64,000 nt of DNA from Haloarcula sp. CBA1129. GTDB taxonomy: Archaea > Halobacteriota > Halobacteria > Halobacteriales > Haloarculaceae. Where the stretch lies: the NCBI RefSeq assembly GCF_008729015.1, contig NZ_RKSM01000001.1, forward strand, positions 1,736,001 through 1,800,000. The letters are read 5' to 3'. Each line of letters opens with the position of its first letter. Position 1 is the first letter of the stretch. The position numbers and the translations under genes are program-made. Shown here one piece after another: positions 43,560-58,957 of this stretch. The notes under the pieces were generated by a model that searched no databases, was not told where the DNA came from, and worked only from the letters and a program-made list of their open reading frames with translations.

Positions 43560-44786
43560 ATGCCTGACCGAGCGCTTTCGACGCCGCTCGACGACAGCTT
43601 CGATCGCTACCTCCAGGACAAGGGAAAAGGCCGCGGTGGCGACGGCGGAAACTATCGACGCAACGCTGCACGCGAACTCGAGCGGTTCGCCAGGTGGGCC
43701 GCTGGCGACCGCGGCGACGACGACTGGACTGGGATTGTCCCCGACCACCTTGACCGCGAGCCGACCTTCGACGATCTCGACGAACGCGTCTTCCGGGAGT
43801 ACGCCCGGCATCTCGGTGGAGATCGGGGACTCAAGCAGAACACGGTACAAACCTATTACCGCTATATCTCTGCGTGGTGTGGCTGGTGTGTCAACGAGGG
43901 GTATCTCGAAGCGCATTACGCCCAGCGGGCGAGTGCGATGGCGCCGCTACCGGAGGACGACGGCCGCAAGCCCGGTGACCAGCAGGCCTGGACGTCCGAA
44001 CAGCGCCACGCCCTCACCCGCCACGTCGACGAACAGGCTTGCGAGGCCATCGAGGCGTACACGACACTCTCGGAGGATACTGCCTCTTTCGACAAGGAGC
44101 GAGCACGCTACGCCGCATTAAAGTCGGCTCGTGACCGGGCTCTGGTGTTCGTCCTTGCGTACACAGCTGTCCGCGTTGGGGAACTACTTCAGGATCCGAA
44201 CGACCCGCGACGGCGTGGCGTCCGCTGGGAGGATCTCTCCCTTGACGACGGGAGTATGGACGTCTACCGGAAGAAACAGCAATGGGACGCTGCGAGTCTC
44301 CCCGACCCGGTGATTTCTCCGCTGCGAAGCTATCGCCAGCTGATGGACCCACCGACGGAGCGCTGGCCCGTGTTTTCGACGTTCGACCAACGGACGCTCG
44401 CAGGGCTCGTTCAGGAAGAGTTCGCCGACCAAGGGAAATGCCCAGAAGCAATTACTGAACGTCGTGAAGGATACGCTCGCGACCTACTGCTGGCGCTCGA
44501 TAAGGACATTCGGCCGCCGTCGATCACGACAGACGGCGCACGGTCGATTCTCCAACGGCTCTCGGAGGCCGCAGAGATCGACATCGACCATCCGAAACAC
44601 GACTATCTGGCGCCCCACGGCGGCCGGCGTGGGATGGGTGAAGTTCTCGTTCGGGCATTCGGATATACCGTCGCCGCCCGGTATCTGGACAATTCGGAGG
44701 AGATGGTTCGTGAACGATATTCGCATATCGAGGCCGGCGAACTTGGAGATGTGGCAACAGAAGCACTCAACGAAATTGATCGATGA
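43560..44786 (+). CDS. Tyrosine recombinase/integrase
   Basis: A 408-residue integrase. The N-terminal SAM-like DNA-binding domain (AARELERFARWAAGDRGDDDW, later EYARHLGGDRGLKQNTVQTYYRYISAWCGWCVNEGYLE) precedes the catalytic domain. The catalytic Arg lies in YTAVRVGELLQ (about 205), the Lys in VYRKKQQWD, the HxxR equivalent in APHGGRRGMGEVL (about 351-356) and the Tyr in RERYSHIEAGE (about 386). It performs site-specific integration or resolution of plasmid dimers. ATG 43560 directly follows a 276-bp gap with no gene. A tRNA 3'-end-like segment lies about 30 bases downstream. Confidence 0.92.
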   Translation: MPDRALSTPLDDSFDRYLQDKGKGRGGDGGNYRRNAARELERFARWAAGDRGDDDWTGIVPDHLDREPTFDDLDERVFREYARHLGGDRGLKQNTVQTYYRYISAWCGWCVNEGYLEAHYAQRASAMAPLPEDDGRKPGDQQAWTSEQRHALTRHVDEQACEAIEAYTTLSEDTASFDKERARYAALKSARDRALVFVLAYTAVRVGELLQDPNDPRRRGVRWEDLSLDDGSMDVYRKKQQWDAASLPDPVISPLRSYRQLMDPPTERWPVFSTFDQRTLAGLVQEEFADQGKCPEAITERREGYARDLLLALDKDIRPPSITTDGARSILQRLSEAAEIDIDHPKHDYLAPHGGRRGMGEVLVRAFGYTVAARYLDNSEEMVRERYSHIEAGELGDVATEALNEIDR

Positions 44787-47470: not shown

Positions 47471-47911
47471 CTACCGACTCGATTCGTCGGTCACGGACAC
47501 GACTGGGCAGGTCGCATCAAGAAGGATCGACTGTGCGACGCTCCCGAAGATGATTTTCCCAGTCTGGGACCGTCGGCGCGGACTGACAACGATGTATTGG
47601 GTGTCGTGTTCATTTGCGTACTCCACGATTTCAGTGGCCGGATCACCGATACGGCCGACAGCTTCGGTTTCGACGTCATCTGGTTGGTCTTCGAGGGCAT
47701 CCGATGCGACTTGCGCGGCTGTCGCACGTAATTCCTCGATTTCGATAGCGTCGTCTGAGGTGATACTCGATGTCTCTGCATTGATTGCCTCCGAACGCGT
47801 CATGACATGGATCGCGTGAACGGGTTCGTCGAAGCGCTTCGCCAGGGTCGCTGCTTGATCCAGTACGTAGGACGAACGCTCTGAGCTATCGACTGCTGCT
47901 ACGATAACCAT
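47471..47911 (-). CDS. Universal stress protein UspA family
   Basis: A 146-residue single UspA domain: MVIVAAVDSSERSSYVLDQAATLAKRFDEPVHAIHVM at the start and YIVVSPRRRSQTGKIIFGSVAQSILLDATCPVVSVTD at the end. The C-terminal ATP-binding motif G-x2-G-x9-G-S/T is changed: SPRRRSQTGKIIFGSV keeps the last GS but not the first glycines. It is a stress-associated nucleotide-binding protein. UspA genes often lie next to TRAP transporter genes, and this one is divergent from dctP (about 106 bp). Confidence 0.88.
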   Translation of the reverse strand: MVIVAAVDSSERSSYVLDQAATLAKRFDEPVHAIHVMTRSEAINAETSSITSDDAIEIEELRATAAQVASDALEDQPDDVETEAVGRIGDPATEIVEYANEHDTQYIVVSPRRRSQTGKIIFGSVAQSILLDATCPVVSVTDESSR

Positions 47912-48017
47912 ACTCTCACTTGAGGGTCCACTGTAATATCATTTGTCCCTCGACCGGTTGAGACTGCCTTGCCACCAAAGGTATAAATACAATGAACGTA
48001 ACGGTCTATATTGCAGA

Positions 48018-49088
48018 ATGTCTCACAGCAATCGGCGGTCAGTCCTGAAGGCAGTTGGAGGTATAGCAACCATCGGAGTTGGCTCCCTTGCGGGCTGTAG
48101 CGGCTCATCTGATGGCGGTGCAGCTACTGATGGCCAGAACGATACGAATGGTCAATCGGGCGGTGACTCCGCAGCGGAGACACTCGATATCGCTGCGACG
48201 TTCGGTCAGGAGCACCCACAGGTGCAGTTGCTCAATCGGTGGAGCGACAATCTGAAGGAGCAAACGGACGGCAGCCTGGCACTCAATTACGTGAGTATCG
48301 GTGGCGAAGAAGACCATATGAGTGCCACCTCCTCTGGGAGTATCGCCGGGCATGGCGTGGCGATGACCGCACTCACGTCGTCGTACGGCCGCGAATACGG
48401 GTTCCTGGAAGCTCCGTTCGTGGCGGAGGGATGGGAGCACTTCCAAGCGCTCATGGACGAATACGTCTACGGCGAAGATGGGTTCAACAGCCAACTGATA
48501 GAGCAGGCTAACCAGCGAATCCTCGGGGCGGCGTTCCGCGGGCTCCGTGGGACGACTGCGAACAAGGCGGTGGCTGCTCCCGCAGATATCGAAGGCGTCA
48601 AGATGCGGCTTCCGGAGTTCGAAACGTGGGTCCAGAGCTGGGAAGAAATCGGTGCGCAAGCGACCCCAGTGCCGTACGACGAACTGTACCAGGCTCTCCA
48701 GACCGGCGTCGTGGACGCGTCGGAAGGGCCGATAGCGCAATTCGTCGATTCGAGTCTCTTTGAGGTCCAATCGCACTTCTCGCAGACAGACCACCTCCTC
48801 CAGACCCAGAACTGGGTGCTCAATGAGGATACGTGGCAGGGTCTCGACGAGTCGGAACAGCAGGCGATGCAGGAGTCCCTCGACGAGGCAATCCAGTGGG
48901 CGAACGAGGAGACCCGAAGCGCCGCGGAGGAACTGCTTACCATGGTTCAGGAAGAACACGACGTTACCGTCGTCTCCAGCGAAGACGTGGATCAGGATGC
49001 GTTCCGAAGCGCCGCACAACCGCAGTTGGAGGAGTTCTTCGCTAATCGGTGGAAGCCGAGCCTCGAGGATGTCCAATCGTTAGCCTGA
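48018..49088 (+). CDS. dctP: TRAP transporter substrate-binding lipoprotein DctP
   Basis: A 356-residue extracytoplasmic binding protein. The N-terminus has a Tat signal (SNRRSVLKAVGGIATIGVGS) and a lipobox (SLAGCSG), so the protein is exported folded and lipid-anchored outside the membrane. The mature part follows DctP: ETLDIAATFGQEHPQVQLLNRWSDNLKEQTDGSLALNYVSIG, and EGVKMRLPEFETWVQSWEEIGAQATPVPYDELYQALQTGVVDASEGP. The family binds organic or sugar acids. ATG 48018 gives the Tat signal at residue 5; the longer frame from 47943 is not used. The dctQ gene follows 25 bp later. Confidence 0.93.
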   Translation: MSHSNRRSVLKAVGGIATIGVGSLAGCSGSSDGGAATDGQNDTNGQSGGDSAAETLDIAATFGQEHPQVQLLNRWSDNLKEQTDGSLALNYVSIGGEEDHMSATSSGSIAGHGVAMTALTSSYGREYGFLEAPFVAEGWEHFQALMDEYVYGEDGFNSQLIEQANQRILGAAFRGLRGTTANKAVAAPADIEGVKMRLPEFETWVQSWEEIGAQATPVPYDELYQALQTGVVDASEGPIAQFVDSSLFEVQSHFSQTDHLLQTQNWVLNEDTWQGLDESEQQAMQESLDEAIQWANEETRSAAEELLTMVQEEHDVTVVSSEDVDQDAFRSAAQPQLEEFFANRWKPSLEDVQSLA

Positions 49089-49113
49089 CAATGGTCGTAA
49101 CAATACTACGGGT

Positions 49114-49689
49114 ATGACCGAACAAACCCCCGATTCGGCAATCAGAACGCTCATGCAGCGGCTGGAGAATGCCCTGGGAAGCCTGGGGCAACTCGTCCTC
49201 GGTGCGATGGGCGTCGTCGTCGCTTTCCAGATCATCATGCGCGTTCTCCCGACCGACTACGGGGCCGTCTGGACGACTGAAATCGCTCGGTACCTACTAG
49301 TGATAATGACTCTGACCGGTATCCCCTACGCGATGCGCCGCGGCAGCCATATCTCGATTCGGCCGCTACTGCGGATGCTGACAGACTCGCTCCAGAAGTA
49401 CCTCACAACGTTCTCTAATCTCCTAGTCATCGCGATGTGTGGCATCGGTATCTGGTCCGCCGTGAGCGTCATTGAGCAGACGCTCGTTCAGTCGCTTCCC
49501 ACGGTCGGCTGGCTGCGGGTCGGGTACCTGATGATCTACCTGGCAATCGCGTTCGCGCTCTGTATCGTGTTCATCGTCGAAAAGATGGTGACAATGTGGG
49601 TTCCTGGCCTCTCGGAACCCGGCGCCAAAGACCATCCCGTGGGAGATGTCGAGGAGACCACAGAAGAACATGACCGGGAGGAACGATGA
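49114..49689 (+). CDS. dctQ: TRAP transporter small permease DctQ
   Basis: A 191-residue protein with four membrane segments: LVLGAMGVVVAFQIIMRVL, EIARYLLVIMTLTGIPYAM with the family RGSHISIRPLL segment, TFSNLLVIAMCGIGIWSAVSV and WLRVGYLMIYLAIAFALCIVFIV. It is the small subunit of the TRAP transporter and stabilises the large permease DctM. The C-terminus is polar and acidic. It overlaps dctM by 4 bases (ATGA) and follows dctP, so the three genes form one operon. Confidence 0.93.
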   Translation: MTEQTPDSAIRTLMQRLENALGSLGQLVLGAMGVVVAFQIIMRVLPTDYGAVWTTEIARYLLVIMTLTGIPYAMRRGSHISIRPLLRMLTDSLQKYLTTFSNLLVIAMCGIGIWSAVSVIEQTLVQSLPTVGWLRVGYLMIYLAIAFALCIVFIVEKMVTMWVPGLSEPGAKDHPVGDVEETTEEHDREER

Positions 49690-50993
49690 TTCCCGAACCG
49701 GTCCTGTTGATACTACTGTTCGTGATACCGCTGCTGGTCTTCTATCTGATCGGCGTCCACGTGGCGTTCGCGCTGGGACTCGTGTCGGTGTTGGTGATGC
49801 TGTCGGGCCTCGGTCCATCCTGGACTGTCGAGACGTTCGCCAACCGAATGTTCGGCTCGCTGAACAGCTTCACGCTGCTTGCGATTCCGTTTTTCCTCTT
49901 TGCGGGACGGATGATGAACAACATCGGGCTGACCGACGACATCTTCGATTTCGCCGAGGCGCTCGTGCGGCCGTTGCCAGGCGGTCTCGGACACGTGAAC
50001 GTCGTGGTCAGTATCATCTTCTCAGGGATGAGTGGCGCGGCGGTGGCCGACGCCGCCGGCCTGGGCTCCATCGAGTACGAGGCGATGACGAGTCGCGGGT
50101 ACGACGGTCCGACTGCGGCGGGGATCACTGGTGCGTCCTCGACTATCGGTCCGATCATCCCACCGAGCATTCCCATAATCGTCTACGGCGTGACAGCGCA
50201 GGTGTCGATCGGAGCCCTCTTCCTGGGCGGAATTCTCCCCGGGTTACTGATGGGACTTGGCCTGATGGTGTTCATCACTGTCGGGGCGCTCAGGAGCGGC
50301 AGGGCGGACATGAGCCCCTTCAACCTCCGCAAGCTTGCTGAATCTAGCGTCAGAGCAATCCCCGGTCTGGTTGCGCCAGCGATTATTATCGGCGGTATCG
50401 CTCTGGGCATATTCACCCCAACCGAAGCGGCCGCCGTCGCTGGGATCTACGCAATACTCCTCGGTGTCTTGTTCTATCGGAACCTTGATTGGGGCACGTT
50501 CCGGTCGATCCTTGGAGATACGTTCGAGGACACTGCAGTACTGACGCTCATCATTGCCTTCGCGAACGTCTATGGCTTTGTGCTCACCATCTCGGGGCTG
50601 CCGTCAATTCTCACCGAGGGCCTGCTAACCCTGTCGACCGACCCAACATTCATCCTACTCTTGTTCTCCCTCTTCTTCCTCATCCTCGGCACCTTCATGG
50701 AGACGATCGCTATCATCCTGATCGTCGTGCCGATTGTCGCGCCGGTGCTGCCCCAGATCGGCATCGATCCGATTCACTTCGGCATCGTGATGATGGTCGC
50801 ACTGATGATCGGATTGATCTCGCCGCCCTTCGGTGTCGTCTTGTTTGCGCTCGAACGGGTGACCGATCTGGAAATCGAGGAGATCATCCAGGGAATCATT
50901 CCCTATTACATTCCCTTGTTAGTTGCACTGGTACTCCTCGTCGTCTTCCCCTCGATAGTCCTCTCTGTCCCCCGATACTTCGGGCTCGCGTAG
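49686..50993 (+). CDS. dctM: TRAP transporter large permease DctM
   Basis: A 435-residue membrane protein with about twelve segments. Family features are AIPFFLFAGRMMNNIG, SGMSGAAVADAAGLGSIEYEAM, GITGASSTIGPIIPPSIPIIVYG, IFTPTEAAAVAGIYAILLG and MIGLISPPFGVVLFAL. It drives Na+ or H+-coupled import of the substrate delivered by DctP. The nearby sugar-acid catabolic genes make a sugar-acid substrate likely, which is inference. Complete and without odd features. Confidence 0.95.
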   Translation: MIPEPVLLILLFVIPLLVFYLIGVHVAFALGLVSVLVMLSGLGPSWTVETFANRMFGSLNSFTLLAIPFFLFAGRMMNNIGLTDDIFDFAEALVRPLPGGLGHVNVVVSIIFSGMSGAAVADAAGLGSIEYEAMTSRGYDGPTAAGITGASSTIGPIIPPSIPIIVYGVTAQVSIGALFLGGILPGLLMGLGLMVFITVGALRSGRADMSPFNLRKLAESSVRAIPGLVAPAIIIGGIALGIFTPTEAAAVAGIYAILLGVLFYRNLDWGTFRSILGDTFEDTAVLTLIIAFANVYGFVLTISGLPSILTEGLLTLSTDPTFILLLFSLFFLILGTFMETIAIILIVVPIVAPVLPQIGIDPIHFGIVMMVALMIGLISPPFGVVLFALERVTDLEIEEIIQGIIPYYIPLLVALVLLVVFPSIVLSVPRYFGLA

Positions 50994-51075
50994 CCCGATT
51001 TTCTCCAGCCTACGTCGTATAATTAGTGTTCGATGGTCCGTCGCGGCGTCAAAAACAGTCCAGTTGTCCGATGTG

Positions 51076-51837
51076 CTACTCTTCGGTGAGTGTCTCGTGT
51101 TTCTCGCGTGCCAAATCGCTCCCCTCCGCGAGATAGGCGATGTCTGCCCCCGCGATCAGGAAGTCGATACCAGCGCCGGTCCACCGCTCGATGCTCTCCT
51201 CATCTGTGGCCAACATGCCGACCTGCTTTCCAGCGTCATGCACTGTCGTCACGATCGAATTTAGGGTGGATTCGAACGTCTCGCTTTCCCACTGGCCGAA
51301 CACGTCGAGCGACGCAGACAGATCTCCGTGTCCCACGATCACCGCGTCAACACCGTCGACGGAGACGATTTCGGCGGCGTTCGACGCACCGAGTTCGGTC
51401 TCGATTTGCAGGATCGTCGTGAGCTCGTCATCGGCGTGTTTGTAATACTCGCCGAACGTCCGGCCGTAGTCGGAGGCCCGTGCGGGCGCTACACCCCGAT
51501 CACCGTTTGGCGGGTACTGCATCGCCTCGACAGCCTGTTCTGCCTGTTCACGGGTTTCGACTCTCGGAATCATGAGGCCGGCGACGCCCAGATCGAGGAC
51601 GCGCTTGATCCAGACTGGATCGTTGGTCGGGACCCGCACGATGGGCGCCACATCTCTGTCAACCGCCCGGAGCATGTTTTCGAGCGTTTCGAGACTCATC
51701 GCCGTGTGCTCCAAGTCGATGACGACGAAGTCATACCCTTGCGAACAGATCTCGGCGACCGCCGGATGACCGATCGAGATCCACGTACCCGTTGATGATT
51801 CGTCTTGGTCGAGGAACCGCTGCTGGCTGTCTGCCAT
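51076..51837 (-). CDS. HpcH/HpaI family aldolase
   Basis: A 253-residue class II aldolase with YDFVVIDLEHTAMSLETLENML, PIVRVPTNDPVWIKRVLDLGVAGLMIPRVETREQAEQAVEAMQYPPNGDRGVAPARASDYG, TTILQIETELGASNAAEI and VIVGHGDLSASLDVFG. The family cleaves 2-keto-3-deoxy acids to pyruvate (or similar) and an aldehyde using a divalent metal. It is a plausible step in the acid-sugar cluster. ATG 51837 (MADSQQRF) is chosen because the longer frame to 51939 lies in the promoter region. It is divergent from the SDR gene. Confidence 0.92.
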   Translation of the reverse strand: MADSQQRFLDQDESSTGTWISIGHPAVAEICSQGYDFVVIDLEHTAMSLETLENMLRAVDRDVAPIVRVPTNDPVWIKRVLDLGVAGLMIPRVETREQAEQAVEAMQYPPNGDRGVAPARASDYGRTFGEYYKHADDELTTILQIETELGASNAAEIVSVDGVDAVIVGHGDLSASLDVFGQWESETFESTLNSIVTTVHDAGKQVGMLATDEESIERWTGAGIDFLIAGADIAYLAEGSDLAREKHETLTEE

Positions 51838-51956
51838 GCTCGGAAGTAGCGTTACCAGCGATAAAACGTTTCTCACTGGTGAGCTCCGTTGTCTTCGAGA
51901 CCGTGCCCGGAGTTGCGTCGTTCGACAATCATGTATCACGCCGGACGCTTCGCCGG

Positions 51957-51970
51957 TACTATTATATAGG
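51957..51970 (+). promoter_or_regulatory. TATA box of the SDR gene
   Basis: TACTATTATATAGG lies about 30 bases before ATG 51997, indicating a leaderless transcript. The sequence is very similar to the TATA element before the duplicated-protein gene (GTATTATATAATAGG at 53461). Confidence 0.6.
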
Positions 51971-51996
51971 TGGCTCAGAAATTTCTGGGTGTAAGT

Positions 51997-52785
51997 ATGA
52001 CCGATTGGTTAGCGGATGACGTAGCGATAGTAACGGGTGGCGCCAGCGGTAACGGGCGCGCAATCAGTCTCACACTCGCCGAATACGGTGCGAACGTCGT
52101 TGTTGCTGATCTGCAGCCCGACCCTCGTGAGGGAGGGACTCCAACGCACGAGAAAATCAGGGACGAGTACCATCAGGAGGCCGAATACGTCGAATGCAAC
52201 GTTGCAAGTATCGAAGACCTCCAGAAGGCAGTCTCAACGGCCGATGACCTGGGCGGCGTCTCCATCATGGTCAATAATGCCGGCATCACCCAGAGCGACG
52301 ACTTCCTAGAGACGACGGAGGAAGAGTTCGACCGGATTATGGACATCAACGTGAAGGGTGTCTTCTTTGGATCCCAGGAAGCTGCGAAAAGTATGATCGA
52401 TGCGGACCGGAACGGGACGATCGTCAACATGTCCAGCGTCACCTCCTTCATCGGTCGTGGGGACGGGGTGCGATACACGACATCCAAGGGTGCTGTTGAG
52501 TCAATGACTCGGGCTCTTGCGGATCGACTCGGCGGATCAGACATTCGTGTGAACTCTGTCCACCCGAGCATGATCAAGACGAGCATGACTGACGAAGACC
52601 TTGACCTGATCGACAACGAGTCCGAGGAGGAGCACAGACAGAAGACACCCCTCGGACGGATCGGGCAGCCCCAAGACGTGGCCAATACCGTCCTGTACCT
52701 CGTCAGTCCGCTTGCTAGCTTCATCAGTGGCGAGGCACTGACTGTCGACGGCGGCGTCACGACGACGCTGGGCGGTGGCTACTGA
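51997..52785 (+). CDS. Short-chain dehydrogenase/reductase
   Basis: A 262-residue SDR with TGxxxGxG (VTGGASGNGRAI), NNAG (VNNAGITQSDD), the catalytic Ser (NMSSVTSF), YxxxK (YTTSKGA) and the DGG end (LTVDGGVTT). It is an NAD(P)-dependent oxidoreductase of sugar or hydroxy-acid type. Start ATG 51997 (MTDWLADDVAIVTGG) is fixed by the TATA box about 30 bases upstream. The TATA element resembles that of the 53496 gene, suggesting common control with the sugar-acid cluster. Confidence 0.93.
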   Translation: MTDWLADDVAIVTGGASGNGRAISLTLAEYGANVVVADLQPDPREGGTPTHEKIRDEYHQEAEYVECNVASIEDLQKAVSTADDLGGVSIMVNNAGITQSDDFLETTEEEFDRIMDINVKGVFFGSQEAAKSMIDADRNGTIVNMSSVTSFIGRGDGVRYTTSKGAVESMTRALADRLGGSDIRVNSVHPSMIKTSMTDEDLDLIDNESEEEHRQKTPLGRIGQPQDVANTVLYLVSPLASFISGEALTVDGGVTTTLGGGY

Positions 52786-52984
52786 CAACACAGAGGTGAG
52801 TAGAGGACAGATAGCGTGGACAACTGCCGTAACTGTGTCGACGTGCTCAGTCGTAATTTGATATCCAGAGCGGAGTCGAAGACGGAATACGGGATGTCGG
52901 AAAACAGGAGGTTAGGACACGGTAGTCCAGTTGCAGTCGTGGGAATCGGAAACCCGTTCGCCTAGAGAAAGCGCCCGATCACAG

Positions 52985-53410
52985 CTACTGTCGATCTTCG
53001 ATCCGGCGAGAGTCTTCGACGATCTGCATCGGCAGCGGCGTGTCGTGATAATCGAGTGTCGTGATTTTCCAGTCGATTCCGTCTCTGATTTCGTCGAGGA
53101 AATTGTACCCAAGCTCCTCGAGTTGTTGCCGACGGCGCTCGATGTCGTCTACTTCGAAGGCGATGTGGAAGAACCCCGGACCGTGTTCCTGGAGGTGCTC
53201 GTAGTGCCAGCCACTCGGACCAGTCGGTGAGGTAAACTCGATGATCGTCCCACCGACGGAGTAGAGCGCTACCTCGCAGTTGTCCTCTTCGAAATAGACC
53301 ATTTCGGACCGTTCCATCTCGAAGTGCTCTTCGTAGACGGCAGTATACTCGTCAAGATCGGCGTCAATACCACCTGCAAGTATCGCTATGTGATGTATTC
53401 GCTCGAACAC
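52985..53410 (-). CDS. VOC family protein (glyoxalase/epimerase-like)
   Basis: A 141-residue protein resembling methylmalonyl-CoA epimerase: IHHIAILAGG (metal His), VALYSVGGTIIEFTSPTG (metal Glu), YEHLQEHGPGFFHIAFEVDDIERRRQQLEELGY (metal His) and an MQIVEDS end. VOC proteins use a divalent metal for isomerisation, epimerisation or dioxygenation. A role in a sugar- or keto-acid pathway is possible. The start is GTG 53410, with a TATTTA box about 30 bases upstream on the minus strand. It is divergent from the duplicated-protein gene. Confidence 0.85.
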   Translation of the reverse strand: MFERIHHIAILAGGIDADLDEYTAVYEEHFEMERSEMVYFEEDNCEVALYSVGGTIIEFTSPTGPSGWHYEHLQEHGPGFFHIAFEVDDIERRRQQLEELGYNFLDEIRDGIDWKITTLDYHDTPLPMQIVEDSRRIEDRQ

Positions 53411-53460
53411 ACTGATACTCTCTCACGACGGTGGTAAATAGGTTTTGCCGGGAAACAAAA

Positions 53461-53475
53461 GTATTATATAATAGG
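53461..53475 (+). promoter_or_regulatory. Palindromic TATA element of the duplicated-protein gene
   Basis: GTATTATATAATAGG contains a 12-bp palindrome (TATTATATAATA) and lies about 22-33 bases before ATG 53496. It fits a leaderless start and is similar to the SDR promoter at 51957. Confidence 0.55.
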
Positions 53476-53495
53476 TAGTCGAGGTAATCACTGTC

Positions 53496-54296
53496 ATGCC
53501 CAGAGATATTAGAGTAGTCGATAGTATCACACAACCCGATGATTCCGAGGGTGCAGTTGTCGTCGCTGGCAGTCACGGCGGTATCTCGTCTGGACGATAC
53601 GCCGCGCAATTAGGACTGCGGGGAATCATATTCAACGACGCGGGCGTCGGTAAAAACGAGGCCGGGATCCAGTCACTGCCATACTTGGACGATCTGGGAC
53701 TCCCGACAGCGACGGTCAACAATGAGAGCGCCCGTATCGGCGACGGCCTGAGTATGGTCGAAGGCGGTGTGGTGAGTCACGTTAACGACGCAGCGGCGGA
53801 CTGTGGCTGCGAGGTCGGTCAGTCCGCTGTTGAGTGCGCAGCGGCTATGTCCGACGCGGAACGCGATCCAGTTCGGGAGGACGTTGGGAACGAGATGACC
53901 CAAAAAAAGGTTCGAGACGGCGACACGCCCGTCTGGACACTCGACTCTATCGGCCTGATCAACGACGAGCACGAGGGGGCGATCACTGTCACGGGCAGCC
54001 ACGGCGAGCGCCTGGCCGGCGAGATCGACTCCTACATTCAGGCCGACGTTGCGGGAATTACTCTCTTCGATGCGGGCGTCGGGAAAGACGATGCTGGCAT
54101 CGGTCGGATCGAAACGATGAACGAGCGCGGGATCCCTGCGGCCACGGTCGACGTCGAGTCAGCACAGATCGGCGACTCCACGTCAGCGCTGGAAGACGGT
54201 ATTCTCAGCCATGTCAACGATATCGCTGCAGACCTCGGGATCTCGCCCGGAGACAGTTGTTCAGACTTCGTCGATCGGGTTCGTGGGAAGAAGTGA
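53496..54296 (+). CDS. Internally duplicated protein of unknown function in the sugar-acid cluster
   Basis: A 266-residue protein made of two copies of one unit, about 143-144 residues apart: GSHG at 25-28 and 168-171, DAGVGK at 48-53 and 192-197, ATV at 72-74 and 216-218, IGD at 81-83 and 225-227, SHVND at 94-98 and 238-242. The Gly/Asp/Ser-rich conserved loops look like nucleotide- or phosphate-binding loops or an enzyme active site, but I do not know the family. The N-terminal MPRDIRVVDSIT is short and the middle linker acidic. It is followed 31-73 bp later by the RuBisCO-like gene, so it probably acts in the same pathway. It has its own TATA box and a leaderless start. Confidence 0.75.
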   Translation: MPRDIRVVDSITQPDDSEGAVVVAGSHGGISSGRYAAQLGLRGIIFNDAGVGKNEAGIQSLPYLDDLGLPTATVNNESARIGDGLSMVEGGVVSHVNDAAADCGCEVGQSAVECAAAMSDAERDPVREDVGNEMTQKKVRDGDTPVWTLDSIGLINDEHEGAITVTGSHGERLAGEIDSYIQADVAGITLFDAGVGKDDAGIGRIETMNERGIPAATVDVESAQIGDSTSALEDGILSHVNDIAADLGISPGDSCSDFVDRVRGKK

Positions 54297-54369
54297 CACG
54301 GATGACCGTAGCCTCGACGGACACTAAATGCAGCCCACAATGGAGCCGGACAAGCGGATTAACATACCA

Positions 54370-55629
54370 ATGCCACGGATACAAGCGACGTACCTGATCG
54401 AGACGCCACACGCTCCCAGCGACGCGGCTGAAGCGATTGCCAACGAGCAGTCGTCTGGGACCTTCGTCGATGTCTCCACCGAGACGGACGACCTCACCGA
54501 GCGCCATGGCGCCAGAGTCGAAGACGTGACAGTGCGGGCGACGGTCGATGAGCCCAGCCTCCCTGGGGCCGAAACTCCAGACAACTCCAGCGACGCTGGT
54601 TCGTACACCCGAGCAACGGCTCAGTTGTCCTACCCAATGGAGAACATCGGCACATCACTCCCGAACCTCATGACGATGGTCGCGGGGAACCTGTTCGTCC
54701 TGAAGGAGCTTTCGGGCGTTCGGCTGATCGACCTCTCGATTCCCGAGTCATTCGCTGCGGCACAGCCTGGCCCGCAGTTCGGCATCGAGGGCACACGGGA
54801 GGTCGTCGGCATCAAAGATAGGCCGATTATAGGAACGATCATCAAACCGAGTGTCGGGCTCTCGCCCGATGAGACGGCTAAAATAGTCGAGACCGTGGTC
54901 GACGCCGGTGTCGACTTCATCAAGGACGATGAGCTCATCGCCGGGCCGCCCTACTCTCCCGTCGAGGAACGCGTTGAAGCAGTGATGGACGTCATCAATC
55001 GCCACGAAGCGGAGACCGGCGAGACGGTGATGTATGCCTGTAACGTCACCGGCGATGTCGACGAAATGCTGCGTCGCCACGACGCGGTGAAAGACGCTGG
55101 CGGCAACTGTCTAATGGTCAGCCTCCAGAGCGTTGGACTGGCCGGGGTCAAGCGACTCCGCGAGGAGTCTGACCTGCCGATCCACGGACACCGGAACGGT
55201 TGGGGCGCGCTGTCCCGCTGTCCACTGCTCGGGTTCAGCTACGAGGCTTGGCAGAAGTTCTGGCGACTCGCCGGCGTTGACCACCTCCACGTGAGTGGAA
55301 TCCGGAGTAAGTTTTACGAGTCCGACGAGTCGGTAATCGCCTCTGCAACTGAGTGCCAGACACCAATCGCCAGCCAAAAGCCGGTGATGCCCGTCTTCTC
55401 TTCGGGCCAGTGGGCCGACCAGGTGCAAGACACGTACGAGGTCCTCGGGAACGCGGATCTCATGTACCTCGCCGGGGGCGGAATCCTCGGTCATCCCGAC
55501 GGACCGGGAGCCGGTGTCACACATCTCAAACAGGCCTGGGAGGCGGCGATGCAGGGAGTACCGCTTGAAGAATACGCAGAGACACACGAGGAGTTACGAA
55601 CAGCCATCGAACACTACGAAAACAAATGA
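54370..55629 (+). CDS. RuBisCO-like protein, probable sugar-acid-phosphate decarboxylase (OiaX-like)
   Basis: A 419-residue RuBisCO large-chain homolog. The RuBisCO catalytic Lys is in GTIIKPSVGLSP (K159), the carbamylated Lys with the metal ligands is in DFIKDDE (K185, D187, E188) and the HxHR is in PIHGHRNGWG (272-275). The loop-6 region (HVSGIRSKFYES) differs from true RuBisCO. RuBisCO-like proteins of the OiaX type decarboxylate 3-oxo-isoapionate-4-phosphate; OiaT is a related variant. The kinase that would make this substrate follows directly. ATG 54370 (MPRIQATYLIETP) fits the family better than ATG 54328, which would add 14 residues. It is upstream in one operon with the DUF1537 kinase. 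Confidence 0.88.
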   Translation: MPRIQATYLIETPHAPSDAAEAIANEQSSGTFVDVSTETDDLTERHGARVEDVTVRATVDEPSLPGAETPDNSSDAGSYTRATAQLSYPMENIGTSLPNLMTMVAGNLFVLKELSGVRLIDLSIPESFAAAQPGPQFGIEGTREVVGIKDRPIIGTIIKPSVGLSPDETAKIVETVVDAGVDFIKDDELIAGPPYSPVEERVEAVMDVINRHEAETGETVMYACNVTGDVDEMLRRHDAVKDAGGNCLMVSLQSVGLAGVKRLREESDLPIHGHRNGWGALSRCPLLGFSYEAWQKFWRLAGVDHLHVSGIRSKFYESDESVIASATECQTPIASQKPVMPVFSSGQWADQVQDTYEVLGNADLMYLAGGGILGHPDGPGAGVTHLKQAWEAAMQGVPLEEYAETHEELRTAIEHYENK

Positions 55630-55657
55630 TACTAACTATCAATCACCACCCGAACCC

Positions 55658-57064
55658 ATGACAGACACAGAGCTACTACTGGCGTTCTACGGAGACGACT
55701 TCACCGGATCAACTGATGCCCTCGAGGGCCTCGCGGACAACGGCGTCCGGGCGGTACTCTTCATGGAACCCCCGACCCCCGCCGAGTTAGAGCGGTTCGA
55801 CGATCTCGACGCCGTCGGCGTCGCTGGCGTAAGTCGATCGATGACTCCTGAGGAGATGACGGCCGAGCTTCCATCCATTTTCGAACGGTTCGCAGATCTG
55901 GACGCGCCGATCGTCCATTACAAGGTCTGCTCAACCTTCGACTCCTCACCTGAGGTCGGGAGTATCGGGACCGCGATCGACGTTGCACAGGAGGTCTTCG
56001 ATTCGCCGTTCGTCCCAGTTTCACAGGGAACTGAAGTCCCACACGGCCGCTTCGTCGCATTCTCTAACCTGTTTGCGGAACAAGGCGGAGAAATGTACCG
56101 TATCGACCGTCACCCGACAATGCGAGATCACCCGGTCACCCCGATGCGAGAGAGTGACCTCCGCCGGCATCTCGGGGAACAGACTGACCGCCCGATCGGG
56201 GGCGTTGACCGTCGGTTCCTTGAATCATACACCGACCTCGCGTCGGCGGTGGATGAGACCGCGGTAGACGACGAAATCGTCGTGCTCGATGCACTGGATA
56301 GCGACCATCTGGCCAGGATCGGGCATCTCCTGTGGGACCGGGCGACCGATGCACAGGGGCAACTGTTCGCTGTCGGCTCTTCGGGACTGGAGCACCACGC
56401 ACTCGTCAGTCACTGGGACGAGATCGGACTGATAGACCGGACGGAGTCGTTCTTCGACAAGCGAGACCCGGTAGATCGAATCGCCGTCATGTCTGGAAGC
56501 GCGTCCGCAGAGACGGCGTCGCAGATTGAGTGGGCGAGTGACCACGGCTTCCAGTTGGTCTCTATCGACACCGAGCGGCTTGTCGACCCCGACGAGGCAG
56601 CCGAAGCGCGCGACGAAGTGGTGGAGTCAGCTCTCGACGCGTTGGATGCCGGAGAAAGCGTTGTCCTCTACTCGGCACGAGGGCCAGACGACCCGGCGAT
56701 AGACGCGACGCGAGAGCGGTTCGAGGCGGTCGGGATCGATGAAGGCCTCGAATCGTATCTCGGGCGTGAGCAGGGCCGCATCTTCCGCGAGGTACTCCAA
56801 CGCGCGGATCTTGATCGAGCCTGTGTCGCTGGTGGCGACACCAGCAGTCACGTCGTCTCCCAGCTCAATCTTCAGGCTCTCGAGGCCGTCGCGCCGGTCG
56901 CTCCGGGAGGGCCGCTGTGTCGTGTGTACTCGGACGAGGAAGCCTTTGACGGCCTCGAGATCGCTCTCAAGGGTGGACAGGTCCACACGGAAAACGACGA
57001 GTTCGACTACTTTGGGGCCGTCGAACGCGGTGGTGTCGAGCGCGACCAGACCAAGCGAACATAA
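55658..57064 (+). CDS. DUF1537 four-carbon acid sugar kinase (OiaK/OtnK-like)
   Basis: A 468-residue kinase of the DUF1537 family. It starts MTDTELLLAFYGDDFTGSTDALE, the N-terminal family signature. It also has HYKVCSTFDSSPEVGSIGTAIDV, VMSGSASAETASQIEWASDHGFQLV, and a C-terminal nucleotide-binding part with AGGDTSSHVVSQLNL and PGGPLCRVYS. Known members phosphorylate tetronate, denpyronate or 3-oxo-isoapionate with ATP. ATG 55658 lies 28 bases after the RuBisCO-like stop; the longer frame from 55514 runs inside that gene and is not used. It is convergent with the IclR gene. Confidence 0.9.
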   Translation: MTDTELLLAFYGDDFTGSTDALEGLADNGVRAVLFMEPPTPAELERFDDLDAVGVAGVSRSMTPEEMTAELPSIFERFADLDAPIVHYKVCSTFDSSPEVGSIGTAIDVAQEVFDSPFVPVSQGTEVPHGRFVAFSNLFAEQGGEMYRIDRHPTMRDHPVTPMRESDLRRHLGEQTDRPIGGVDRRFLESYTDLASAVDETAVDDEIVVLDALDSDHLARIGHLLWDRATDAQGQLFAVGSSGLEHHALVSHWDEIGLIDRTESFFDKRDPVDRIAVMSGSASAETASQIEWASDHGFQLVSIDTERLVDPDEAAEARDEVVESALDALDAGESVVLYSARGPDDPAIDATRERFEAVGIDEGLESYLGREQGRIFREVLQRADLDRACVAGGDTSSHVVSQLNLQALEAVAPVAPGGPLCRVYSDEEAFDGLEIALKGGQVHTENDEFDYFGAVERGGVERDQTKRT

Positions 57065-57102
57065 CGTTTCTTCTCAGTAACCGATCAAACGTCGGCGGGC
57101 TG

Positions 57103-57876
57103 TCAGGGCGTGTCGAACTTCAGTTCCAGTTCCATTTCGTTGACCGTCTCGCGGACCCTCTGTGTCAACCGCTCTCTGGACTGCTCGTTGCGGACGCGCT
57201 CGACGGGGCCGCCCAATGCAAGTGCCCCCAAGACTTCTCTCTCCAACCGGACTGGCACTCCGACGCCACAGTAGCCCTCTACGTGTTCCTCCCAGTTATA
57301 CGCATAGCCCCGTTCGCGGACCGTTTCGAGTTCTTCGAACAGCTCCTCACGGTCTGTGATTGTGTGTTCGGTGAGTGCAGGAAGCCCCACCGAGTCGATG
57401 ATCTCCTCGACTCGTTCCCGCTCATAGAAAGCCATAATCGCCTTCCCAGTTGCGTTCGCGTGGAGGTAGATCCGCTTCCCGGGACGGGTATCGATTGACG
57501 TCGCGTGTTCGCCGGTTGTGGTGTAAACGTGGTATCCGTAGCCGTTCTCCTCGACGATGAACTGGACTTGTTCGCCTGTCTCCTCCGCGAGCGATTGGAC
57601 GAACGATTCTGACAAGCGGTACGCCCGCCGCCGCTCTCTGGCTCGTCCCCCAACTTGGAGGAACTCGAGTCCCGGGTAGTAGACATCACCCTCTCGGACG
57701 ACGTATCGCCGGCCGATGAGTGTATTCAGATGGTGATACACCGTGCTGTCCGCCAGGTCAAGTTCCGTAGCGATTTCGTGAAGCTTTGCTCCGTCTTGCT
57801 CTTGGAGCAACTCGACGATGTCGAAAGCCGTCTCGGTCGCTTGGACAGTTCGGTTCTCGCTAGAGCCAGTCGCCAT
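57103..57876 (-). CDS. IclR family regulator of the sugar-acid cluster
   Basis: A 257-residue IclR regulator. The N-terminal winged helix is TVQATETAFDIVELLQEQDGAKLHEIATELDLADSTVYHHLNTLIGRRYVVREGDVYYPGLEFLQVGGRARERR; the C-terminal effector domain (SLAEETGEQVQFIVEENGYGYHVYTTTGEHATSIDTRPGKRIYLHANATGKAIMAFYERERVEEII) ends in VERVRNEQSRERLTQRVRETVNEM. It senses a small acid ligand and controls the catabolic genes around it. ATG 57876 (MATGSSENRTVQ) is the family-like start; the longer frame to 58173 overlaps the promoter region of the ApnO-like gene. Confidence 0.92.
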   Translation of the reverse strand: MATGSSENRTVQATETAFDIVELLQEQDGAKLHEIATELDLADSTVYHHLNTLIGRRYVVREGDVYYPGLEFLQVGGRARERRRAYRLSESFVQSLAEETGEQVQFIVEENGYGYHVYTTTGEHATSIDTRPGKRIYLHANATGKAIMAFYERERVEEIIDSVGLPALTEHTITDREELFEELETVRERGYAYNWEEHVEGYCGVGVPVRLEREVLGALALGGPVERVRNEQSRERLTQRVRETVNEMELELKFDTP

Positions 57877-58117
57877 ATGTGGAATGCGATCCTCTATCAC
57901 AAAACGTTGTCGCCGGCTCGAATACGGATAGTACGTGCCACACACTACCCCAGGGACCTCGTGGTGGCCGGGGCTCATACAGTCGATGTACAGTAGAATA
58001 GTGTTGCTCCCACCGCCATCGCCTCTCGCGAAGAGAAGGGGGGTTTGAAACTTTGAGGGGCCGATTTTCCGGGGATTTATTGTGGTGTGTATCGTAAAGT
58101 CGACTAGTGCCTGAGTC

Positions 58118-58957
58118 ATGACTGTCAGCGTAGCACTCTTTGGAGCCGGCGGCAAAATGGGATGTCGGATCACTGACCAACTGAAAGACTACGATCGGTA
58201 CGACGTACGGTACGTGGAGCCAAGCGACAGCGGCCGCGAGCGCCTCGCCGAGCGCGGTCTTTCAGCAACTCCCGAAAACGAAGCCCTCGACGGAGCAGAT
58301 ATCGTCGTGTTGGCCGTACCCGACGACCTCATTGGAACCGTCTCGGAGGACGTGGTCCCACAGATGGACCGCGGGAGCATGGTCGTTTTGTTGGACCCGG
58401 CGGCGGCATACGCCGGGAAATTATACGAGCGAGCGGACATCTCATACTTCATCACACACCCAGCACACCCATCTATCGTAGATGCAAATTCGAGCCTGAG
58501 TGGCGACAACCCGGACTGGTTCGGAGGGCAAGGACGCGAGGAACAGGACATTGTCTGTGCCCTCCATCAGGGCCCCAATGAAGACTACGACCGTGGAGAG
58601 GCTTTCGCCCGGGACATCTATGCGCCGGTACGGCGGGCCCACGAACTCACCACGGAGCAGATGGTCGTCTTGGAGCCCGCACTCGTCGAAATGGTCCTTG
58701 GGTCCTGTCTGTACGCTATCCGTGAGGCCCACGAGCACGCGGTCGACATCGGCGTCCCCGAGCAGGCAGCGAAAGACTTCCTGTTTGGTCACTTCAGAGT
58801 CGAACTCGGGATCGTCTTCGGATTCACCGACTTTCCGTTTTCAGACGGGGCACAAGAAGCGATCGAGCAGACCAAGCAGGACATCTTCGTCTCAGACTGG
58901 AAGGAGACGGTCTTTTCAGAAGAACGACTGGACGAGGTAACATCGGAAATCGCCTAA
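58118..58957 (+). CDS. NAD-dependent oxidoreductase, ApnO-like (D-apionate oxidoisomerase family)
   Basis: A 279-residue protein with an N-terminal Rossmann fold (VSVALFGAGGKMGCRI), VRYVEPSDSGRERL, ADIVVLAVPDDLIG and a helical C-terminal domain of the PGDH_C type (TTEQMVVLEPALVEMVLGSCLYAIREAHEHAVDIGVPEQAAKDFLFGHFRVELGIVFG). HPAHPSIVDANSSLSGDNPDWFGGQGREEQDIVCALHQG is the middle. The family includes ApnO, which turns D-apionate into 3-oxo-isoapionate. Divergent from iclR and next to the OiaK/OiaX-like genes, it would provide the first step of that pathway. The exact substrate is inferred. Confidence 0.82.
   Translation: MTVSVALFGAGGKMGCRITDQLKDYDRYDVRYVEPSDSGRERLAERGLSATPENEALDGADIVVLAVPDDLIGTVSEDVVPQMDRGSMVVLLDPAAAYAGKLYERADISYFITHPAHPSIVDANSSLSGDNPDWFGGQGREEQDIVCALHQGPNEDYDRGEAFARDIYAPVRRAHELTTEQMVVLEPALVEMVLGSCLYAIREAHEHAVDIGVPEQAAKDFLFGHFRVELGIVFGFTDFPFSDGAQEAIEQTKQDIFVSDWKETVFSEERLDEVTSEIA

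Follow-up and report, generated by a model that had tools for sequence, protein, structure and literature searches.

What is the role of an internally duplicated protein, belonging to no named family, that stands among genes for sugar-acid catabolism in a haloarchaeon? We analysed a stretch of 64,000 nucleotides of Haloarcula sp. CBA1129 (contig NZ_RKSM01000001.1, positions 1,736,001 to 1,800,000; hereafter the window) in which this protein, the target, is encoded. An earlier reading made from the sequence alone had placed the gene in a sugar-acid setting, directly before a RuBisCO-like gene, and had proposed that its product fills a missing isomerase step or serves as a binding subunit. The features concerned are, in window coordinates:

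47943..50993, + strand, TRAP transporter DctP, DctQ and DctM (profile matches)
51076..51939, - strand, HpcH/HpaI-family aldolase (profile matches)
51970..52785, + strand, SDR oxidoreductase (profile match); a homologous SDR adjoins the target in a second haloarchaeal clade
52985..53410, - strand, VOC-family protein (profile match), divergent from the target and also adjoining it in the second haloarchaeal clade
53464..53471, + strand, TATA-like box TTATATAA, 25 nt 5' of the target ATG (read from the sequence)
53496..54296, + strand, the target, an internally duplicated protein of 266 aa from an unnamed family (ORF translation, unit comparison)
53496..53864, + strand, target unit 1, residues 1-123, DUF1805-like alpha/beta domain with an N-terminal GSHGG strand (hhalign, AlphaFold2)
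53925..54293, + strand, target unit 2, residues 144-266, same fold as unit 1, retaining H169, D192, R204 and N241 (hhalign, conservation)
54328..55629, + strand, RuBisCO-like protein (RLP), nearest NCBIfam model OiaX (502.7 bits against a cut-off of 700)
55658..57064, + strand, DUF1537 (SBD_N/NBD_C) kinase, nearest NCBIfam model OiaK (454.9 bits against a cut-off of 700)
57103..57873, - strand, IclR-family regulator (profile match)
58118..58957, + strand, PGDH_C oxidoreductase, candidate apionate-oxidoisomerase-type enzyme (PF16896, 1.4e-43; PDB 5t57, E 1.5e-64)

The sugar-acid setting is borne out by the TRAP importer, the OiaX-like RLP, the OiaK-like kinase and the PGDH_C oxidoreductase, a putative ApnO-like enzyme, and the target does directly precede the RLP gene, which starts 31 nt downstream. 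OiaX and OiaK are the best NCBIfam models for the RLP and the kinase, and since both scores fall under the equivalog cut-off of 700 the exact substrate may differ. The cluster as a whole (47471-58957) looks horizontally acquired because none of the other genomes of the same genus in our sample matches the target, its closest relatives carry the cluster on plasmids, and a tyrosine-recombinase-like integrase gene, recognised by eye, lies upstream at 43560-44786.

The start of the target gene is supported by relatives that begin with MPRDIR and by the TATA-like box upstream, a stretch that also scores as a TATAAT-like site and makes a near-leaderless start likely. The protein is made of two units, as had been proposed. 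Units 1 and 2 share 47 of 98 aligned residues (48 %, E 9e-26, blastp), their local alignment scores 221 compared to 33 +/- 6 for shuffled sequences (maximum 58 in 2000, z ~32), and their profiles match over 119 columns with a probability of 100 (E 2.7e-44). The motifs start in units 1 and 2 at residues 25/167 (GSHG), 48/192 (DAGVGK), 72/216 (ATV), 81/225 (IGD) and 94/238 (SHVND). The previously suggested offset of 143-144 residues thus stands as 144 for the last four motifs and gives way to 142 for GSHG, owing to a two-residue insertion in unit 2. Intact family members all have two units (~260-290 aa), so the duplication, on the evidence of these sequences, is ancestral, old and family-wide rather than special to Haloarcula sp. 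CBA1129. We rejected the GVGK string as a Walker A loop, its lysine being conserved in just 52 % and 38 % of sequences in the two units.

How far does this family extend? The target has no NCBIfam match, and its only Pfam match is to DUF1805 (PF08827; 16.2 bits, E 0.013), under the gathering cut-off of 29.5 bits; the description of the protein as unknown holds in that no curated family is matched above its cut-off. Literature searches found no published description of the family. A scan of genome contigs with the target as single query found no relatives, and a profile-derived scan of GTDB contigs confirmed at least 230, of which 80 were kept. Relatives on plasmids, annotated "hypothetical protein", occur in haloarchaea, Rhizobium, Ponticoccus, Aminobacter, Methylovirgula and Rhodococcus, and we found no viral relatives. 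In an even sample of genomes, with the centre genomes included in the counts, the family is present in 10 of 292 haloarchaea (one by a weak, interrupted match), 24 of 240 genomes of the alphaproteobacterial class and 2 of 148 of the actinomycete class. It is also found in Betaproteobacteria, Poribacteria, Latescibacteria and Actinomycetota. The family has no named model, yet it is carried by about a tenth of the sampled alphaproteobacterial genomes as well as by haloarchaea. Halomarina sp. PSR21 holds a 100-aa remnant (L020, 8974-9273), probably of a copy that has decayed, in which the start of unit 1 runs directly into the end of unit 2.

AlphaFold2 predicts the whole target with a pLDDT of 94.2 and a pTM of 0.91 (95.1 pLDDT for unit 1 alone), each unit forming a small alpha/beta domain of five main strands. 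Against a DUF1805 profile built from 16 archaeal proteins, unit 1 matches with a probability of 94.3 (E 1e-7) and unit 2 with 92.9 (E 3.8e-7, hhalign), and the DUF1805 profile matches 9 of 12 target relatives (best 1.8e-7); by these profile comparisons each unit is distantly related to DUF1805. No PDB structure matches the model at E up to 0.001. In fold the full model comes closest to a DUF1805 protein, TA1206 (1qw2), with a probability of 0.97 over 58 columns and a target-normalised TM-score of 0.44. Unit 1 alone gave no better PDB match than the full model and a weaker one to 1qw2 (probability 0.33, 53 columns, rank 44). PDB sequence searches with the single protein or a profile returned only chance matches or a Y-family polymerase segment. 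The family segment G-x-ISHVN..A...G...G in the C-terminal part of unit 1 (53763-53855) resembles, by sequence (IMS, best 6.2e-8 in a relative) and by fold, part of the Y-family DNA polymerase palm, a likeness common to DUF1805. Beyond the remote match to DUF1805, the family has no solved relative.

Among 117 sequences, six polar positions are conserved in both units (unit 1/unit 2): S26/S168 (100/98 %), H27/H169 (87/99 %), D48/D192 (93/99 %), R80/R224 (85/78 %), D83/D227 (93/83 %) and N97/N241 (99/100 %). R204, found in unit 2 only, is 94 % conserved. DSSP of the AlphaFold2 model puts the conserved polar residues of both units on beta-strands or immediately behind them, a placement that suggests an enzyme active site or a ligand-binding cleft. 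We consider it probable that the target is an enzyme. One alternative is a protein without catalytic activity that binds small molecules or has an accessory role, such as a sensor, a metabolite carrier or a stabilising partner of ThDP or RLP enzymes. The partners of the family are diverse, DUF1805 is itself of unknown function, and the gene contexts would fit an accessory or binding role as well, so that a binding or regulatory role is possible. Nevertheless the target has no DNA-binding domain, no single enzyme is its obligate partner, and the Ser, His, Asp and Asn at the strand ends are strictly kept in both units; we regard the non-catalytic alternative as unlikely.

Which reaction could such an enzyme serve? 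The haloarchaeal relatives form a single clade in the tree (100/98) with two branches. In the first (100/100), the target precedes an RLP and a kinase in the window and in five further loci (L017, L018, L021, L108, L125), while in another member, L022, it adjoins peptide-ABC genes. In the second (98/90; L102-L106), it has no RLP alongside and stands among genes for a lipoyl E2 and for both E1 subunits, alpha and beta, with E3 near it in three loci. TRAP and VOC genes are near the target in nearly all loci of both branches (4/5 in the second), and in most so is an SDR, the window SDR being 47-50 % identical to those of the second branch in three loci. The partnership with RLP and DUF1537 has one origin and is confined to one haloarchaeal clade. 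The simplest reading is that the two branches share one common upstream core and have exchanged the module that cleaves the C-C bond. The RLP branch keeps the polar core but has S in place of Y31, next to the GSHGG motif, and mostly H in place of D159, a pattern that would fit unaltered chemistry on a different substrate. In genome G232 (L105, 9503-11167) the E2 acyltransferase encoded next to the target carries an OsmC-like domain fused to its C-terminus. A protein of the Asp/Glu/hydantoin-racemase family (PF01177) is encoded just upstream of the RLP in G026, a genome that does not have the target (L121, 8390-9049), and another, by annotation, near the target in Natronosalvus (L125, 6590-7252).

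The sequence-only reading had found no isomerase for the erythrulose phosphate product, which is correct for the EryI/RpiB type as PF02502 is absent from the whole Haloarcula sp. CBA1129 genome. It is conceivable that the target takes the place of EryI/LerI and isomerises the RLP-derived tetrulose phosphate to erythrose 4-phosphate. In plasmid relatives, and in those RLP-clade genomes that we examined, the target is directly 5' of the RLP and kinase genes, and it co-occurs with an OiaX-like RLP in haloarchaea (5 genomes with both, Fisher p ~4e-7). The wider distribution points the other way: three of the eight haloarchaea with an OiaX-like RLP (G026, G280, G263) have no target even by profile search, and in G232 the RLP and the target are 24 kb apart, with the target adjoining E1 genes. 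None of these eight haloarchaea has PF02502, each holding one ordinary TIM, and as three of them are without the target, it is not the general missing isomerase. Its core residues are also alike in RLP-linked and other members of the family. Co-occurrence with RLP or DUF1537 genes, the check that had been suggested, goes largely against the proposal: no OiaX-like RLP adjoins the target in half of its haloarchaeal owners or in the bacterial owners mapped, and bacterial relatives stand beside ThDP enzymes instead. The target itself has no Pfam match to PF02502 (RpiB/LacAB/EryI) at E up to 1 nor to PF00121 (TIM), and its AlphaFold2 secondary structure shows two small alpha/beta units and no TIM barrel. 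We judge the isomerase proposal improbable, while such a role may apply within the target's own clade. As the family is found mostly beside ThDP enzymes, and beside an RLP in one archaeal branch only, the target is probably a general catabolic enzyme.

The other proposal, that the target is the substrate-binding subunit of the TRAP transporter, draws on a two-lobed, internally duplicated architecture superficially like that of binding proteins, and we give it almost no chance. The target and most relatives seen have no signal peptide (the target N-terminus, MPRDIRVVDSITQ, is no signal sequence by eye), which argues against such a subunit; the profiles of DctP (PF03480), Bug and SBP do not match it, and the cluster encodes a separate DctP. 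A divergent homologue on an Aminobacter plasmid (L015, 8785-9738) does have a signal-peptide-like start (MNRRIFLGSSALLAVSLLTYKDKALAQ), a point in favour of the proposal, and accordingly one branch of the family may be exported.

We examined the gene contexts of bacterial relatives using a composition-aware gene caller that agrees closely with public annotation. Two kinds of neighbour occur most often, an acetolactate-synthase-like ThDP enzyme and an E1 alpha/beta pair of the pyruvate/acetoin-dehydrogenase type: one or the other is within 6 genes of the target in 38 of 65 de-duplicated bacterial loci, and both in 22. Because the loci of the 80 relatives had been picked by similarity, we repeated the partner count in 23 evenly drawn genomes (22 of the alphaproteobacterial and one of the actinomycete class, with ~4.8 E1_dh genes per genome). 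Of these genomes, 14 have an E1_dh gene no more than 7 kb from the target compared to ~0.4 expected (binomial p ~1.7e-19), and in 13 of those 14 it is within 1.2 kb. Against PF00676 most of the target-linked E1 copies reach 200-260 bits, and nearly all the same genomes also hold a separate copy above 330 bits, so the linked copy is not the housekeeping enzyme. No E2 or E3 was recognised beside the E1 pair in most bacterial target clusters. Acetolactate-synthase-like and divergent E1 alpha/beta genes accompany the target together in L024, L026-L028, L030, L031, L035, L039, L061, L193 and L198. Other recurrent contexts are DapA-target-LldD-GlcG with TRAP or TctA, AtuA/HMG-CoA lyase, SDR with CoA enzymes including CoA-ligase/SDR, and TauD/PhyH; carboxylate transporters (TRAP, Bug, TctA) recur near the family's genes.

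Taken together, these results lead us to a tentative explanation, in which the target is a cytosolic two-domain enzyme catalysing a non-redox step upstream of C-C cleavage. This enzyme would descend from a DUF1805-like domain that was duplicated in tandem long ago, and it would convert an imported hydroxy-oxo-carboxylate, most likely by isomerisation or tautomerisation and less likely by hydration or hydrolysis. It would act on the free acid with no nucleotide cofactor, and before the C-C bond is broken because it is found with each of the cleaving machines. In Haloarcula sp. CBA1129 the machine would be the OiaK/OiaX-like kinase and RLP. The sister haloarchaeal clade would use an E1/E2/E3 complex resembling acetoin or pyruvate dehydrogenase, and bacteria would use a divergent E1 alpha/beta of the ThDP kind, an acetolactate-synthase-like ThDP enzyme, or both. 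3-Oxo-isoapionate is the dihydroxylated analogue of acetolactate, as erythrulose is that of acetoin, and thus acetolactate-synthase-like, acetoin-dehydrogenase-like and OiaX-like enzymes could act on related alpha-ketols or alpha-hydroxy-beta-oxo acids. That the substrate of the target is such a compound is a possibility we hold with some reserve, and that the target isomerises it is, taken by itself, a doubtful suggestion. The diversity of contexts (DapA/LldD, AtuA/HMG-CoA lyase, CoA-ligase/SDR, PhyH) means that one common reaction is not required.

Alternatively the target may detoxify or repair reactive by-products, alpha-dicarbonyls or enediols, that arise in ketol-cleaving pathways, in the manner of VOC/RidA-type accessory proteins. 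VOC genes adjoin it in a few bacteria as well as in the two haloarchaeal clades, and its main partners all handle carbanion or enediol chemistry, which would favour such a role. A step within the pathway would account just as well for the constant link to importers and enzymes of catabolism, and we think detoxification or repair quite unlikely.

Extending the on-pathway explanation, we hypothesize, with considerable doubt, that the family is an unrecognised enzyme of a portable organic-acid module of importer, SDR and often VOC protein, whose cleavage part is exchangeable between ThDP E1 complex, acetolactate-synthase-like enzyme and, in one haloarchaeal branch, RLP with kinase. An RLP would then have taken the place of a ThDP enzyme after one common upstream step. 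If this exchange of partners is real, RuBisCO-like and thiamine chemistry could be compared, on related substrates, as they occur in nature. The family's constant partners offer a testable way towards a new enzyme activity, and perhaps also towards what orphan ThDP and RuBisCO-like clusters act on.

Of the known systems, DUF1805 (PF08827; Bacillus YunC, Thermoplasma TA1206, PDB 1qw2) is like the target in that each unit aligns with it over 65-74 columns; the target differs in being tandem and twice as long and in having an extra N-terminal strand with the GSHGG motif. In the D-apiose/D-apionate cluster of Carter et al. 2018, as cited in PMC6302742, RLPs decarboxylate or transcarboxylate/hydrolyse 3-oxo-isoapionate 4-phosphate. 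A bacterium growing on D-apiose has a cluster with apionate oxidoisomerase, 3-oxoisoapionate kinase and a 4-phosphate decarboxylase (PMC11747546). The target is not among the pathway enzymes named in PMC6302742 and PMC11747546, haloarchaeal RLP loci without the target exist, and the window RLP and kinase score below the equivalog cut-offs; the likeness to the cluster of Carter et al. lies in neighbours nearest OiaX and OiaK together with a TRAP importer and a PGDH_C oxidoreductase. Finally, while the window target has no acetoin/pyruvate dehydrogenase-type E1-E2-E3 complex beside it, its sister-clade homologues resemble such a cluster in lying among E1 alpha, E1 beta, an E2 with lipoyl, E3-binding and catalytic domains and, in some loci, E3.
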